Shown in pieces: positions 12,526-16,957 of a DNA stretch of 39,465 nucleotides (position 1 is its first letter; the number at the start of each line of letters is the position of its first letter). The notes beneath the pieces are model-generated. The model was not told the DNA's origin, ran no database searches, and saw nothing but the letters and a program-made list of their open reading frames with translations. Source of the stretch: Firmicutes bacterium AM31-12AC (lineage in GTDB: Bacteria > Bacillota > Clostridia > Lachnospirales > Lachnospiraceae); NCBI GenBank assembly GCA_003480425.1, contig QUJA01000026.1, positions 1 to 39,465 of the forward strand. Direction: 5' to 3'. The position numbers were made by a program, and so were the translations under genes.

Positions 12526-12661
12526 TATTCGCTGTTGCAGATGCTTTTTTTGATGCAGTGGTATCTGCAAGAGTGAGGTATTCGCTGTTGCGGATGCTTT
12601 TTTTGATGCGGCGGTATCTGCAAGAGTGGGATATTCGCTGTTGCGGATGCTTTTTCCCTGC
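12526..12661. repeat. 53-bp tandem repeat array, orientation A
   Basis: Units beginning TATTCGCTGTTGC start at 12526, 12579 and 12632, a constant 53-bp period; the third is partial. Each contains GCAGATGC or GCGGATGC and GGTATCTGCAAGAGTG. A single related copy lies at about 15668-15690, at the edge of the second Rpn-like copy. Confidence 0.85.
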
Positions 12662-12676
12662 CAGTCATGTTAAATT

Positions 12677-12890
12677 GCATCTTCAATTTACTTATTTCAT
12701 AACTTGCAGATACTCACTTCTACAAAATTGCATCTGCAACCTGCTTATTCTATAACTTGAAGATGCTTCCCACTCAAAAAATTTCATCCTCAATTTACTT
12801 ATTTCAAGACTTGTAGATGCTTCTGCTCCAAAAACAGCATCCTCAACTTGCTTATTCCAAGACTTGTAGATGCTTCCCCACAATTCTTAC
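12677..12890. repeat. 53-bp tandem repeat array, orientation B
   Basis: Four units beginning GCATCTTC/GCATCTGC/TCATCCTC/GCATCCTC start at 12677, 12730, 12784 and 12837 (periods 53, 54, 53). Each has a core like CTTGTAGATGCTTC. The unit resembles the reverse complement of the array just to its left (both share GCATCTGCAAC and a poly-A/T block), so the two arrays look head-to-head. Units are too diverged and too uniform in length for a CRISPR, with no repeat/spacer alternation. Confidence 0.75.
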
Positions 12891-12924: not shown

Positions 12925-12953
12925 TTTACACACCTTAAATTTCGTGATATGGT
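12925..12953 (+). promoter_or_regulatory. Promoter of Rpn-like gene copy 1
   Basis: TTTACA (12925-12930), 17-base spacer, TATGGT (12948-12953). The same TTTACA-17-TATGRT arrangement precedes the other two Rpn-type genes although the spacer bases differ, which supports it. The -10 lies in a perfect hairpin sequence, GTGATA-TGG-TATCAC (12944-12958). Confidence 0.7.
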
Positions 12954-12959
12954 ATCACT

Positions 12960-13050
12960 ACATCTTCAGGGGATTTCTTTTCTCTGAATTTTCTAAGCCG
13001 TAAGGCTCTCATCTCGGGTTTCGATTTCTGAAACATGATCCGATATGAAA
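12960..13050 (+). ncRNA. Conserved structured 5' leader of Rpn-like gene, copy 1
   Basis: Three successive hairpins follow the promoter. P1 (12965-12988): TTCAGGGGA - 6-base loop - TTCTCTGAA, nine pairs including two G-U. P2 (12996-13007): AGCC-GTAA-GGCT with a GNRA loop. P3 (13009-13048): TCAT.TCGG paired with CCGA.ATGA around one mismatch, a 5-base bulge, then GTTTC - 7-base loop - GAAAC. The same three elements occur at 15770-15860 and, on the other strand, at 15376-15461, where P1 differs by compensating base changes. The gene starts 128 bases after P3. Function is unknown; a cis-regulatory RNA is the natural reading. Confidence 0.75.
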
Positions 13051-13176
13051 AGAGATGCTTTTGACAAGTTGATAATCGAGGATTTCTAGATTGTTTTTCA
13101 CTTCTGTGATATTTTTTGTTGTCTCTTTGTCATTGCATTAAGTAACTGAAAACTTTATAATGAAAGGAGACTTTAA

Positions 13177-14025
13177 TTGAAGAAAGGTACAAAAGATACG
13201 ATTCAATGGCATCCGGCTTTTCAGGCATCAATCCAGATTGAATTTGAAGCCGAAGCTGAAAAACTCACCTTTGAGCCGGAGCATTTGCTTTCCAAAAAGC
13301 CTATGCAAATGGATGAATTGATCATCAAGGTTGCTGAAAACGAAGCGATTCACAAAAATATTGGCAGGATTTTTAGACAATACAATATCATCGAATACAA
13401 AAGTCCTAATGATAACCTAACAATCAATGACTTTTACAAAGTGTACGGATACTGCTGTTTTTATCAGTCAGACACAGATAAAATTTGCAAGATTCCACCG
13501 GAAGAATTAACTATTACTTTCATATGTAATCATTTCCCAAGAAAAATGGTTCAACATTTGAAGGAATTTCGTAGACTGGATATTAGTCATGTGGAGGCTG
13601 GAATCTATTATATTACCGGGGATGCTTTTCCGATACAGCTTTTGGTGACAAGGGAATTAGATCCGAAAGAAAATCTCTGGTTGCAGAGTTTGCGCAATAA
13701 CATGTCTAAGCCTGAGGAAATCAAAACACTTCTCCGGGAATATGAGACAAAAAAATCATCGAAATTATATCAAGCTGCAATGGAAGTTATTACCCGGGCG
13801 AACTGGGATGCAGTAAAGGAGGTTAAAGAAACTATGTGCGAAGCATTGAAAGAATTAATGGCAGAAGAATTTCAAGAACAGGAAGCTCTGGTGACGAAGC
13901 GAGTGACGGAACAAGTGACCGAAGAATTTATCAGAACTTTATCTAAGTCGATCACTGATGTTGATAAACTTGCTGAACTTTTGAATTTACCTGTGGAACA
14001 GATTAATAAAGTATTGGATAAGTGA
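13177..14025 (+). CDS. Rpn-like PD-(D/E)XK nuclease-family protein, copy 1
   Basis: This 282-residue protein belongs to a Lachnospiraceae family that I assign to the PD-(D/E)XK/Rpn group by motif: Asp in PMQMDELIIK (about D46) and the E-x-K pair in NIIEYKSPND (E73, K75), followed by FYKVYGYCCFYQ. A helical C-terminal part ends in ITDVDKLAELLNLPVEQINKVLDK, a short motif common at Rpn C-termini. The TTG start is preceded by AAAGGAG at 8 bases; a six-codon ATG mini-ORF (13160-13180) overlaps it. A strong internal ribosome binding site near the 3' end would yield a separate C-terminal protein. Rpn proteins are known as toxic, phage-defence nucleases; the role here is inferred. Some databases label this family with unrelated names. 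Confidence 0.75.
   Translation: MKKGTKDTIQWHPAFQASIQIEFEAEAEKLTFEPEHLLSKKPMQMDELIIKVAENEAIHKNIGRIFRQYNIIEYKSPNDNLTINDFYKVYGYCCFYQSDTDKICKIPPEELTITFICNHFPRKMVQHLKEFRRLDISHVEAGIYYITGDAFPIQLLVTRELDPKENLWLQSLRNNMSKPEEIKTLLREYETKKSSKLYQAAMEVITRANWDAVKEVKETMCEALKELMAEEFQEQEALVTKRVTEQVTEEFIRTLSKSITDVDKLAELLNLPVEQINKVLDK
13834..14025 (+). CDS. Candidate internally started C-terminal protein (RpnS-like), copy 1
   Basis: Inside the Rpn-like gene, AAAGGAGG (13815-13822) stands 11 bases before an in-frame ATG at 13834, opening a 63-residue product starting MCEALKELMAEEF and ending with the parent protein. Rpn families are reported to encode a short C-terminal protein (RpnS) within the full-length gene that blocks its toxicity. 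The site is identical in copy 2. The product carries a four-residue repeat, VTEQVTEE, where copy 2 has only VTEE. The spacing is slightly long, so expression is a prediction. Confidence 0.5.
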   Translation: MCEALKELMAEEFQEQEALVTKRVTEQVTEEFIRTLSKSITDVDKLAELLNLPVEQINKVLDK

Positions 14026-14058
14026 TGTGGTTTAGCCAAAGCTCGACGAAACTGCACT

Positions 14059-14144
14059 AAATACCAAGCGACTATGCTCTCTTGCTCAGCTTCGTCGGGC
14101 AAGCCCGATTTCAATTCGCCAGATTGCATAGTCGCTTGGTATTT
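14059..14144. terminator. Long palindrome, bidirectional terminator between convergent Rpn genes
   Basis: AAATACCAAGCGACTATGC (14059-14077) and its exact reverse complement (14126-14144) flank a 48-base interior with its own CGGGC-AA-GCCCG hairpin. It is followed by TTTTT on the plus strand. It sits between the stop of copy 1 (14025) and the stop of the opposing Rpn gene (14176). The interior is present in the opposite orientation at copy 2. Confidence 0.75.
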
Positions 14145-14175
14145 TTGTGGTGTGTCGTAGATGGATGGAAGAGAT

Positions 14176-14493
14176 TTATTTCTTTCCTAACGATTTTAGG
14201 ATTTCTTCATTTTGCCGTTTCAATTCTTCCATCATGGCTTTTATCTCTTTATTTTCATTTTTTATACTTTCATTCTCGCTTTTTATACTTTCATTCTCGT
14301 TTTTTATGCTTTCATTCGCAAGTGTCAAATTTTCATTTTCAAATGCCAAATTTTCATTCGCAAGTCCCAATTTTTCGTTCTCAAACGCCAAATTTTCATT
14401 CTGAGTTCTTAAATTATCAGCTTGTTTCTGCATCTCATCAATCATCAATTCTACTGTATTGCGATCTAGTTCTAATAATTCTTTTGAAAACAT
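14176..14493 (-). CDS. Candidate internally started coiled-coil protein (RpnS-like)
   Basis: Within the Rpn gene, AAGAGGTG (14500-14507, minus strand) lies 8 bases before an in-frame ATG at 14493. The product is 105 residues: MFSKELLELDRNTVELMIDE followed by the heptad coiled coil and SLGKK. Spacing and strength are as good as for normal starts here. In characterised Rpn systems such C-terminal products dimerise with and inhibit the full-length nuclease, and their repeats vary between strains. Expression is not proven. Confidence 0.55.
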   Translation of the reverse strand: MFSKELLELDRNTVELMIDEMQKQADNLRTQNENLAFENEKLGLANENLAFENENLTLANESIKNENESIKSENESIKNENKEIKAMMEELKRQNEEILKSLGKK

Positions 14494-15345
14494 TCCCATC
14501 ACCTCTTCTATGTTGAGGCAAATGTCATACACTTGATTGTAAAGTGCTTTGAAATCGGGATATTGCTCTAATATCTGCACAATATCTTCCGGAGCATCCA
14601 TACTCAGAAATGCTAGCCATGCCTCAAGACGATTGTCTAGTTTTATTATCTTGTCATTATTGTGCTTAATTTTATTGAAGTTGTCAAGCGTTACGAAGAG
14701 ATATTTTTGTAGAAGATTCATCTTTGCCCCTGTATCGGATTCTTGCTTAAAGCGATGCATATATACGTCTTTGAATTTTTTTAATTCTTGTGGGCTTTGC
14801 TGAAATAGAACAATGGTGTAGACATCTTTTATATCTTTATATGACATTTTTGTATGAGAATCAAGTTTCTTTTCTGCCTTCTGTTTTACACGCTTATATT
14901 GTCGTAACAACAAATCGGCTGAATAGCAGGCACTTCGTTCTCCTGGAAACATATATCCTATTTTTTGAATTTCTAAGTTTACAATACTTCCATCTTCTAA
15001 TTCAACGACAATGTCCATGATTAATAAAGTTGACTCATCCGCAAGTCTTGTCCCATCATTTGGTAACACTTCCAATATTTTTACTTTTTGATTTAAAAGT
15101 AATGATAAAAATTCATTTACCCGCTCACGATATATTTCCGGATTTAGAATTTCTTTACTTATAAAATCATACATCATCTTCACCCCACGTGCACCGGTAC
15201 AGAAATTGATAAAATCTTGTCTTGCTTCTTCTTTCCAACTATAGAAAATTGATTTTAGTTTTGGTTTTTCCTCTATCTCGGCCATTAGTTGTTCTTTCGT
15301 CCGAATCATAGGGAAATACTGTTGCAGTTTGTTTGTCATAGGCAT
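14176..15345 (-). CDS. Rpn family PD-(D/E)XK nuclease/putative transposase
   Basis: This protein of up to 389 residues has the Rpn/PD-(D/E)XK transposase-like core: Asp in LLIMDIVVELEDGS (about D111) and E-x-Q in IVNLEIQKIGY (E125, Q127), then the helix RSACYSADLLLRQYKRVKQ. The C-terminal third is a coiled coil of N/E-rich heptads (NENLAFENEKLG to ESIKNENKEIK) encoded by 21-bp repeats. The ribosome site GGAGG is 3 bases before the first ATG but 9 before the second (15339), so MTNKLQQYF is the likelier start. It faces away from copy 2 and shares its promoter and leader design. An internal ribosome site at 14502-14507 would give a C-terminal 105-residue protein. Likely a phage-defence or DNA-mobility nuclease; the role is inferred from the family. 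Confidence 0.85.
   Translation of the reverse strand: MPMTNKLQQYFPMIRTKEQLMAEIEEKPKLKSIFYSWKEEARQDFINFCTGARGVKMMYDFISKEILNPEIYRERVNEFLSLLLNQKVKILEVLPNDGTRLADESTLLIMDIVVELEDGSIVNLEIQKIGYMFPGERSACYSADLLLRQYKRVKQKAEKKLDSHTKMSYKDIKDVYTIVLFQQSPQELKKFKDVYMHRFKQESDTGAKMNLLQKYLFVTLDNFNKIKHNNDKIIKLDNRLEAWLAFLSMDAPEDIVQILEQYPDFKALYNQVYDICLNIEEVMGMFSKELLELDRNTVELMIDEMQKQADNLRTQNENLAFENEKLGLANENLAFENENLTLANESIKNENESIKSENESIKNENKEIKAMMEELKRQNEEILKSLGKK
14250..14405. repeat. 21-bp (heptad) repeats encoding the Rpn coiled coil
   Basis: On the minus strand successive 21-base units encode LAFENEK/LGLANEN/LAFENEN/LTLANES and SIKNENE/SIKSENE/SIKNENK. The DNA repeats (for example TTTTATACTTTCATTCTCG on the plus strand) are close enough for slippage, so length probably varies among strains. 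Confidence 0.85.
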
Positions 15346-15375
15346 TTTCCTCCATTTTGAATATTTTGTTGTTTT

Positions 15376-15461
15376 TCATATCGGATTATGTTTCAGAAAT
15401 TGAAACCCGAGATGAGAGCCTAACGGCTATAGATGTATTCGGAGAAAAGAAGTTCTCCGAA
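15376..15461 (-). ncRNA. Conserved structured 5' leader of the minus-strand Rpn gene
   Basis: The same three hairpins as in the other leaders, on the opposite strand. P1 (15438-15461) is TTCGGAGAA - CTTCTT - TTCTCCGAA, nine Watson-Crick pairs; compared with the plus-strand copies, A-U becomes G-C at pair 4 and two G-U become A-U, so structure is kept while sequence changes. P2 (15417-15428) is AGCC-GTTA-GGCT. P3 (15376-15415) is identical to copy 2. P3 ends 30 bases before the coding start, which is much closer than in the other two genes. Confidence 0.75.
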
Positions 15462-15470
15462 GATATGGTT

Positions 15471-15499
15471 ATCATAGCATGAGTTTGGAGTGTTGTAAA
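15471..15499 (-). promoter_or_regulatory. Promoter of the minus-strand Rpn gene
   Basis: On the minus strand TTTACA (15494-15499), a 17-base spacer and TATGAT (15471-15476). The P1 hairpin begins about 10 bases after the -10, as in both plus-strand copies. Confidence 0.72.
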
Positions 15500-15504
15500 G
15501 ATAA

Positions 15505-15648
15505 CGTTACTGTTCACAATAACTGTGACCAGCAACGCATCTCGCCATTTAAAATCGCCTTTGGCGATGGGCGAGATGCCGTTCAAGATAAAGCGTGCAT
15601 CCTCCGTGCCAATCAGCGTAGTGATTGACACGGGAGTGAACAGTAACG
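15505..15648. other. Cloverleaf-like palindromic element between divergent Rpn genes
   Basis: Outer arms CGTTACTGTTCAC (15505-15517) and its exact complement (15636-15648) enclose two further hairpins: GCATCTCGCC/GGCGAGATGC (15537-15579, with ATCGCC-TTT-GGCGAT nested inside) and CCGTG..AATCA/TGATT..CACGG (15604-15633). It is GC-richer than its surroundings and absent from the matching place upstream of copy 1. It resembles a small non-coding mobile element (MITE or REP-type). Confidence 0.7.
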
Positions 15649-15734
15649 CGGCATCTACGATACCAGGATATTCGCTGTCGCAGATGCTTCCCCACAATTC
15701 TTACCAAAGTATTGTGAAACACAAAACTTCTTCC

Positions 15735-15763
15735 TTTACATTACTTGAATTTCGTGATATGGT
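15735..15763 (+). promoter_or_regulatory. Promoter of Rpn-like gene copy 2
   Basis: TTTACA (15735-15740), 17-base spacer and TATGGT (15758-15763), the same design as at copy 1 with a partly different spacer sequence. Confidence 0.7.
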
Positions 15764-15769
15764 ATCACT

Positions 15770-15860
15770 ACATCTTCAGGGGATTTCTTTTCTCTGAATT
15801 TTCTAAGCCGCAAGGCTCTCATCTCGGGTTTCAATTTCTGAAACATAATCCGATATGAAA
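15770..15860 (+). ncRNA. Conserved structured 5' leader of Rpn-like gene, copy 2
   Basis: P1 at 15775-15798, P2 at 15806-15817 (AGCC-GCAA-GGCT, a GNRA loop different from copy 1) and P3 at 15819-15858 (loop and bulge each with one purine change from copy 1). Differences from copy 1 within the hairpins fall in loops or bulges, not in stems. Confidence 0.75.
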
Positions 15861-15986: not shown

Positions 15987-16822
15987 TTGAAAAAAGGTAC
16001 AAAAGATACGATTCAATGGCATCCGGCTTTTCAGGCATCGATCCAGATTGAATTTGAAGCCGAAGCTGAAAAACTCACCTTTGAGCCGGAGCATTTGCTT
16101 TCTAAAAAGCCTATGCAAATGGATGAATTAATCATCAAGGTTGCTGAAAACAAAGCAATTCACAAAAATATTGGCAGGATTTTTAGACGGTACAACATCA
16201 TCGAATACAAAAGTCCTAATGACAACTTGACAATCAATGATTTTTACAAAGTATACGGATACTGTTGTTTTTATCAGTCGGACACAGATAAAATTTGCGA
16301 GATTCCACCGGAAGAGTTGACTATCACTTTTATATGTAATCATTTTCCAAGAAAAATGGTGCAACATTTGAAGGAATTTCGTGGACTGGATATTCGTCAT
16401 GTGGAGGCTGGAATTTATTATATTACCGGGGATGCTTTTCCGATGCAGCTTTTGGTGACAAGGGAATTAGATCCGAAAGAAAATCTCTGGTTGCAGAGTT
16501 TGCGCAAAACATGTCTAAACCCGAGGAAATCGAAGTACTTCTCAAGGAATACGAAGCAAAAAAATCATCAAAATTATATCAAGCTGCAATGGAAGTTATT
16601 ACCCGGGCGAACTGGGATGCAGTAAAGGAGGTTAAAGAAACTATGTGCGAAGCGTTGAAAGAATTAATGGCCGAGGAATTTCAAGAGCAGGAAGAACTCG
16701 TGACGAAGCGAGTGACGGAGGAATTTATCCGAACGCTCTCTAAAAATATCACTGATGTTGATAAGCTTGCTGAACTTTTGAATTTACCTGTGGAACAGAT
16801 TAATAAAGTATTGGATAAGTGA
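15987..16822 (+). pseudogene. Rpn-like PD-(D/E)XK protein, copy 2, frameshifted
   Basis: This is the paralogue of the gene at 13177, with the same TTG start, AAAGGAG site and overlapping six-codon mini-ORF. It reads through D46, E73 and K75 and on to WLQSLRK, where copy 1 has CGCAATAACATG and this copy has CGCAAAACATG (16506-16509). The missing base shifts the frame and ends it at 16625. The rest of the gene stays open from ATG 16511 to 16822 (MSKPEEIEVLLKEYEAKK...), so the nuclease half is separated from its C-terminal half. It may be an assembly error, or a real state in which only the C-terminal, antitoxin-like part is made. Confidence 0.78.
16643..16822 (+). CDS. Candidate internally started C-terminal protein (RpnS-like), copy 2
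   Basis: AAAGGAGG (16624-16631) precedes an in-frame ATG at 16643 by 11 bases, exactly as in copy 1. The product is 59 residues, four fewer than copy 1 because one VTEQ repeat unit is absent. It is unaffected by the upstream frameshift, so it could be made even if the full-length protein is not. Confidence 0.5.
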   Translation: MCEALKELMAEEFQEQEELVTKRVTEEFIRTLSKNITDVDKLAELLNLPVEQINKVLDK

Positions 16823-16846: not shown

Positions 16847-16932
16847 AAATACCAAGCAATTATGCAATCTGGCGAATTCGAGTCGGGCTTGCCCGACGAA
16901 GCTGAGCAAGAGAGCATAGTCGCTTGGTATTT
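16847..16932. terminator. Long palindrome after copy 2, loop inverted relative to copy 1
   Basis: Arms AAATACCAAGCAATTATGC (16847-16865) and GCATAGTCGCTTGGTATTT (16914-16932) pair with one mismatch and one wobble, followed by TTTTT. The 48-base interior matches the reverse complement of the interior at 14078-14125 almost base for base, including the GTCGGGC-TT-GCCCGAC hairpin. Confidence 0.75.
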
Positions 16933-16957
16933 TTGTGGTGTATTATGGTAAAGCAAT

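Follow-up and report, generated by a model that had tools for sequence, protein, structure and literature searches.

A covarying three-hairpin leader ahead of Rpn-type nuclease genes in Lachnospiraceae and its possible role in their control

What is the three-hairpin sequence that stands, behind one and the same promoter motif, ahead of three Rpn-type nuclease genes on a contig of Firmicutes bacterium AM31-12AC (Lachnospiraceae), and what might it do there? The window analyzed here is the whole stretch of 39,465 nucleotides of contig QUJA01000026.1 (assembly GCA_003480425.1); two of its three genes lie on the plus strand (family A, copies 1 and 2) and one on the minus strand (family B). Rpn nucleases are widespread toxin-antitoxin and anti-phage proteins whose expression control is left open in the consulted passages of PMC10327210, where unequal levels of RpnL and RpnS are said to “suggest additional regulation”. 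The comparisons described below lend good support to the leader being a real RNA element with a conserved fold, and its existence, promoter-like element, covariation, loop conservation and association with genes have all been computed. Regarding its function, our favored interpretation, held with slightly better than even confidence, is that of a new family of protein-read, cis-regulatory 5'-leader RNAs through which a shared trans-acting factor would control some of the Rpn/PD-(D/E)XK toxin genes.

The promoter motif TTTACA-17-TATGRT, claimed for all three genes in the first-pass annotation, was recovered by a promoter-pair scan as TTTACA-17-TATGGT at 12925..12953 (plus copy 1) and 15735..15763 (plus copy 2), both on the plus strand, and as TTTACA-17-TATGAT at 15471..15499 on the minus strand. 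TG precedes the -10 box in each of the three; a single promoter-like pair proves little, however, since 17 such pairs are found in the region compared to 12.9 in shuffles. Minimum-energy folding likewise reproduced the common P1-P2-P3 arrangement, which is identical in all three leaders (z-scores of -1.7, -3.8 and -4.8). In plus copy 1, P1 (12965..12988) carries the loop UUUCUU, P2 (12996..13007) a GUAA loop of the GNRA type, and P3 (13009..13048) pairs as UCAU C UCGG ... CCGA U AUGA, while the corresponding hairpins of plus copy 2 occupy 15775..15798, 15806..15817 (GCAA loop) and 15819..15858. On the minus strand, P1 (15438..15461, loop CUUCUU), P2 (15417..15428, GUUA loop) and P3 (15376..15415) follow each other, with the end of P3 lying 30 nucleotides upstream of the ATG at 15345. 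P2-P3 of the minus leader is nearly identical to that of both plus copies, in agreement with an almost invariant P3. Its P1 differs in sequence yet keeps all nine pairs, with exactly the changes that had been described, pair 4 being A-U in the plus copies and G-C here and pairs 6 and 8 G-U there and A-U here. Differences between the two plus leaders had been assigned to loops or bulges; this holds for a P2-loop base and an internal-loop base, whereas the third lies in the top of the P3 stem (G-U to A-U).

As the two plus genes arose by tandem duplication (300 nucleotides at 94%), the window contains only two independent leaders, which are insufficient on their own to prove covariation, and relatives are needed. 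These were collected using two covariance models, R1 from the three window leaders and R2 from P2-P3, with E-values taken from a short calibration. In a structure-blind alignment of the 12 leaders that seeded R2 (A8; three from the window, four from protein-based loci and five R1 hits), 86.6% of the cells are paired, 16 cells are changed on both sides and the covariation score is 0.286, values that none of 500 shuffles reached. Seven pairs display changes on both sides (2 of 500 shuffles) and further pair types occur as well (15 of 500), while every slid register of this alignment is far worse. A larger, R2-selected set of 29 leaders (A9), from which L150, L152 and the below-cut relatives L167, L169 and L171 were excluded, was aligned structure-blind with MAFFT and compared with a tree-aware null, namely our own simulation on a FastTree tree in which the number of changes per column was held fixed. 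Here, the both-side covariation score amounts to 0.218 versus 0.056 ± 0.024 in the null and was reached in none of 1000 simulations; the paired fraction taken by itself discriminates less well (4 of 1000). Hence, covariation is significant against this null, and the selection on RNA structure that had been deduced from the window is borne out by its relatives, although the window itself, with its duplicated plus copies, could not have shown it.

In this leader type, P1 is a hairpin of free stem sequence, often with a UUC(U) loop, and P2 a short GCC/GGC hairpin in which a GNRA loop is frequent. The helix of P3, UCAU..UCGG / CCGA..AUGA, is bulged; its top stem varies, and its loop ends in UC. 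In the lower part of P3, one base is gained on both strands together in several leaders (26 of 29 parsed). The P1 region, taken as the 36 nucleotides preceding the R2 match, has a mean fold z-score of -2.7 (below -1 in 24 of 29), and in 16 of 29 leaders the best upstream hairpin has UUCU in its loop, compared to 4% in shuffles, the shuffles for loop words, promoter elements and mini-ORFs (open reading frames) preserving letters and not dinucleotides. Judged by eye, four paralogues in one genome (G038) retain P1 via different stems. Looser relatives of the leader may even be more general for nuclease genes, as 95 distinct nuclease upstream regions, R2-type or not, contain 342 hairpins versus 241 in shuffles, with ATTC, GTTC, TTCT and TTTC as the most enriched loop words.

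Searching 397 genomes of the family with R1 afforded at least 12 hits in at least nine genomes, including three in G198 (61, 42 and 39 bits), each before a gene of a different nuclease subfamily, and two in G156 that precede family A genes. Seven further R1 hits (L083, L085-L090) were judged to be chance after their loci had been read, and L100 likewise. R2, applied without any gene condition at E ≤ 0.02, gave at least 22 hits in at least 14 of the 397 genomes, 18 of them upstream of genes of the Rpn/PD-(D/E)XK type or their remnants, two ahead of recA and two without such a tie. Seven of these hits are R2 seeds (L139, L140, L141, L143, L144, L153, L157); among the 15 others, the corresponding numbers are 11, two and two, so that the hits lie mostly upstream of nuclease-type genes, as had been suspected. 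At E ≤ 1e-3, 18 hits were obtained (16 nuclease-type, two recA). By profile, 14 of the 22 precede genes or remnants of families A (1), B (12) and C (1), while four precede other Rpn genes or C-terminal parts; L147, L156 and L160 match PF12784, and the gene at L158, for which no family match was obtained, has a C-terminus in common with L160 by eye. Overall, the R2-linked nuclease genes belong to divergent subfamilies. L150 and L152, two R2 hits with weak scores and no nuclease tie, are probably due to chance.

R2 detected no leader in a low-sensitivity search of 390 further genomes from the same class. Since only 10-13 RNA candidates were scored per 40 genomes (R1, R2 and class search), the prevalence given here is a minimum, and little weight attaches to the lack of hits elsewhere in the class. 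A more sensitive search of the genus to which G315 and Candidatus Mediterraneibacter vanvlietii (G002) belong detected the leader in 23 of 41 genomes, with 48 hits overall. The 29 loci read from this search (L190-L218, four repeating earlier places) comprise 18 with nuclease genes or remnants, eight with recA, two unclear cases and one TIGR00375/UvrD-type gene. The latter site, in Candidatus Mediterraneibacter vanvlietii (L049:9169-9245, identical to L190), has a 57.8-bit leader about 170 nucleotides ahead of the gene, which matches TIGR00375 below cutoff; no nuclease was read in between. Exact pattern scans for the window P3 found nothing in viral or genome contig collections, a looser P3 scan of viral contigs gave four matches, and no match to the leader was found in plasmids. 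Some genomes carry many copies (ten in G431, five in G817), partly 1.2-1.5 kb apart on the same strand, a spacing that may reflect nuclease cassettes in tandem.

A scan of the whole window against Rfam 15 at gathering threshold, of the region with permissive filters and of eleven relative loci placed no leader above threshold, consistent with the initial impression that it is not a known riboswitch or leader family. The lone overlap with any leader, C0719 at 20.1 bits (gathering threshold 50), lies on the opposite strand, touches the L049 leader and is chance-level. Motifs of the kind covered by a 224-motif survey are reportedly deposited in Rfam in general. Text searches of PMC found no description of the leader RNA, and the same applies to term searches within PMC11109978, PMC8632094 and PMC10327210. 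The first two, surveys of bacterial intergenic structured RNAs, likewise use comparative analysis to find structured RNAs in front of particular classes of genes; the passages covered by main-text term searches do not describe the present motif. The corresponding passages on RpnL/RpnS (Zhong et al. 2023, PMC10327210) are without a structured leader RNA, and the word “leader” is absent from the main text. The element would represent a new RNA family whose model could be used for genome annotation.

An extended -10 element precedes 24 of the 29 leaders (1.9 expected) and, in 20 of these 24, ends 37-43 nucleotides before the R2 match. Leaders also resemble each other by genome: mean identity within a genome across subfamilies is 0.75 (10 pairs in four genomes, range 0.45-0.89), compared to 0.56 for one subfamily between genomes (90 pairs; none of 5000 permutations), based on 23 of the 29 leaders labeled by genome and subfamily, partly by eye, with six omitted. 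Such likeness by genome, across subfamilies, favors one trans-acting partner common to the copies over RNAs that are each fitted to the nuclease they precede. The first-pass annotation had offered two guesses, a cis-regulator of a toxic nuclease or an RNA partner of it; the former fits better, because leaders group mostly by genome and persist ahead of recA without a nuclease. We infer that the leader would be transcribed from its own extended -10 promoter and that a trans-acting factor common to all copies in the cell, probably a protein, would recognize the UUC(U) loops and P3. Binding of this factor may then set translation or stability of the toxic full-length nuclease, in a direction that is itself conjectural, and leader control would presumably work alongside an intragenic antitoxin of the RpnS type.

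Several observations weigh against this interpretation. The set of 29 leaders was picked by a structure-aware model, which favors pairing. Within-genome likeness comprises just 10 pairs from four genomes, with G315 at 0.45, and could reflect duplication or gene conversion. In none of 80 family A loci (L001-L080) did R2 match ahead of the family A gene, its sole match there being the UvrD-type site of L049; among L102-L138, only four loci gave a strong R2 match and others weak ones, and R2 missed the two G156 leaders detected with R1. Family B matches, in turn, occur in 75 of the 397 genomes compared to at least 14 with R2 hits. Hence, this leader type heads a subset of the genes, and the tie is not general. 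Moreover, a second promoter-like pair, TTGCAT-17-TATAAT, was read from the sequence at 13133..13161 on the plus strand, flush with the Shine-Dalgarno sequence of copy 1; such pairs are found in 47 of 61 distinct family A upstream regions (2.6 expected) compared to one of 34 in family B (0.8 expected), so that the family A leader may lie off the main mRNA. A tiny open reading frame with its own Shine-Dalgarno sequence, often encoding MPLQ plus one residue, precedes this second pair in family A upstream regions (for example in L006, L014, L015, L024, L046 and L077). Mini-ORFs with proline at position 2 occur in 17 of 61 such regions versus 0.4 expected, and the mini-ORF may be the kept start of a PDDEXK_2 gene (the window minus gene begins MPM).

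The distance between R2 match and start codon also varies, from 21-36 nucleotides in nine family B cases (start codon picked by script) through 54-59 in L153 and L146 to about 150-180 in L140, L143 and L154. A position 21-36 nucleotides before the start codon is near the edge of the ribosome footprint. Sequestration of the Shine-Dalgarno sequence is inconsistent, with unpaired probabilities of 0.09-0.91 over 15 leaders. A terminator role was dismissed as well: P1 of the plus copies is terminator-like, P1 of the minus leader is not listed as such, and no conserved terminator was found, with none after P3 in the window. Finally, ten genomes from a single genus retain the leader upstream of recA with no intervening nuclease (L145, L170, L192, L193, L196, L197, L202, L206, L207, L214).

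At these recA loci, identity per 20-nucleotide block is 0.69-0.89 in P1-P3, 0.35-0.65 over the next 120 nucleotides and 0.81-0.92 from just before the promoter of recA itself to its start; inspection by eye shows a Shine-Dalgarno-like run and a very short open reading frame with ATG start preserved in at least seven of these ten. In two relatives, the slot between leader and recA is occupied by the end of a PDDEXK_2 gene or by another Rpn-like gene (Transposase_31 below cutoff), so that the simplest history is one in which the nuclease was lost and the leader kept. A promoter-like stretch with a CGAACnnnnGTTCG box, which we take to be an SOS box, lies between leader and recA (L145/L149), and the idea that the leader regulates recA is weakened by this stretch as well as by the nuclease-type genes found in that slot of the two relatives. 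The persistence ahead of recA is the basis for a bolder proposal, an RNA-level regulon tying Rpn suicide nucleases to the DNA-damage response, in which one trans-acting factor per species would read the UUC(U) loops and P3 of every copy and the solitary leader and mini-ORF units before recA would serve this factor as decoys or sensors instead of heading a nuclease gene; we regard this as rather unlikely.

The recA loci also bear on what else the leader could be. That it acts (also) as a free-standing small RNA, with the recA-side and family A copies working away from their neighbor, would agree with P1-P3 being better preserved than the following 120 nucleotides at the recA loci and with the second promoter-like pair of family A genes. 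The recA genomes are close relatives, though, with identities not set against a neutral rate, the leader often lies directly before a start codon, and the window offers no terminator after P3, which together make this a quite improbable account. An RNA partner or antitoxin that binds the downstream nuclease and neutralizes or guides it, similar to type III systems, would explain why several structured hairpins precede toxin-type genes and why leader and gene are linked. Type III systems likewise place an RNA upstream of the toxin gene in the same orientation. Their hallmark, tandem RNA repeats, is missing here, as no repeats of at least 20 nucleotides were found inside a window leader. Taken together with likeness mostly by genome and not by nuclease subfamily, leaders ahead of recA without an intervening nuclease and an RpnS-type internal start in many family A genes, by which a protein antitoxin is already likely, an RNA partner appears unlikely.

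A riboswitch, in which P2-P3 would sense a small molecule or ion and switch nuclease expression, is suggested by the 5'-leader position, the conserved unpaired letters around P3 and the variable peripheral stem. As no expression platform (terminator or sequestering helix) was found, the fold is small and simple, and the downstream genes point to no one ligand, we consider it distinctly unlikely. Chances are very low that the leader is a passive mRNA stabilizer or an inherited remnant without regulation: 5'-terminal hairpins can protect mRNA, and decayed genes retain leaders, yet loop and P3 letters are conserved more than a stabilizing stem requires. Least of all do we expect the leader to act as DNA, be it as a mobile repeat or as a hairpin-forming stretch used in gene mobility or in recognition by a nuclease. 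Ten copies in G431 and nuclease genes nearby would fit it and recall the mobile or repeat motifs of the MRSC type in the consulted passages of PMC11109978, which share several copies per genome and a link to nuclease-like genes. In contrast to those, a promoter-like element and a same-strand gene hold their position in most of the present leaders, the spacing of the promoter-like element being nearly constant in 20 of 29. G-U cells moreover outnumber A-C cells by 35 to 11, as predicted for pairing in RNA, beside 60 other mismatched cells and with the outer helix partly misregistered in that alignment.

If the leader is indeed a protein-read cis-regulator, its conservation in divergent Rpn subfamilies would offer a first handle on the joint restraint of many toxic nuclease genes, and its persistence beside recA suggests a testable connection to the DNA-damage response. 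That its shape is conserved more than its letters points to a new RNA-level control of self-toxic nucleases in some gut bacteria.

The proteins encoded downstream were assigned as follows. The family B gene (14176..15345, minus strand; 389 amino acids, ATG at 15345) matches PF12784 (PDDEXK_2) at 53.4 bits compared to a cutoff of 27.4 and thus contains a PD-(D/E)XK nuclease domain; TIGR01784 is not among its listed matches, and two of five relatives linked to leaders exceed the TIGR01784 cutoff. Copy 1 of family A (13177..14025, plus strand; 282 amino acids, TTG start) was identified as open reading frame and via aligned relatives. No Pfam family was found for it, its C-terminal match to TIGR01784 is weak (E = 0.011), and no profile match connects families A and B. 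D46, E73 and K75 do not vary across the 23 sequences of a family A alignment (A1), and an AlphaFold model was too poor for a structure search (predicted local distance difference test score of 52.7). Accordingly, the Rpn-type identity claimed for all three genes stands on a Pfam match for the minus gene, while family A is Rpn-like on sequence evidence rather than by family match. Copy 2 (15987..16822, plus strand), recognized from the open reading frames 15987-16625 and 16511-16822 and from the duplication, is frameshifted near 16505. PADLOC returned no match for either window protein, and two distant relatives of family A occur in viral contigs. A family A relative from Hespellia stercorisuis (P0068) is named “3-isopropylmalate dehydrogenase” in the public record, apparently a misannotation.

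Many family A genes appear to contain a second start. In copy 1, an internal Shine-Dalgarno sequence (13818-13822) and an ATG at 13834 could give rise to an RpnS-like C-terminal product of 63 codons (13818..14025, plus strand); by analogy, copy 2 has such a sequence at 16627-16631 and an ATG at 16643, its C-terminal part (16627..16822, plus strand) being intact despite the frameshift. A motif of the type M-C-[DE]-A-L was called in 55 of 85 family A genes (five of the 30 without it are short), corresponding to 44 distinct contexts, all of which have GGAGG 8 or 11 nucleotides before an in-frame ATG. The encoded residues vary in these contexts, and GAG makes up just 38% of the glutamate codons in the gene part before the ATG. 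This layout matches that of the intragenic antitoxin RpnS in the consulted passages of PMC10327210. RpnL/RpnS belong to the same nuclease superfamily (the linked genes here match PF12784 and partly TIGR01784) and likewise use an internal start yielding a C-terminal product; the RpnA mutant K240R+E241D+M244L concerns an internal ribosome binding site and start at K-E-x-x-M that resembles the present GGAGG...ATG. Hence, these contexts probably represent a predicted RpnS-like intragenic antitoxin start in a family not recognized by any Pfam model. In family B, an internal Shine-Dalgarno sequence and start were found in 21 of 32 genes, a count made with no chance control.

The surroundings of the two plus copies are repetitive, too. 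Tandem 53-nucleotide intergenic repeats of two types precede copy 1 (12526-12876), and one related unit lies before copy 2 (15648-15689). A large inverted repeat directly follows copy 1 (14059-14144; 27-nucleotide arms at 89%), and a similar one, recognized by eye, follows copy 2 at about 16849-16934.

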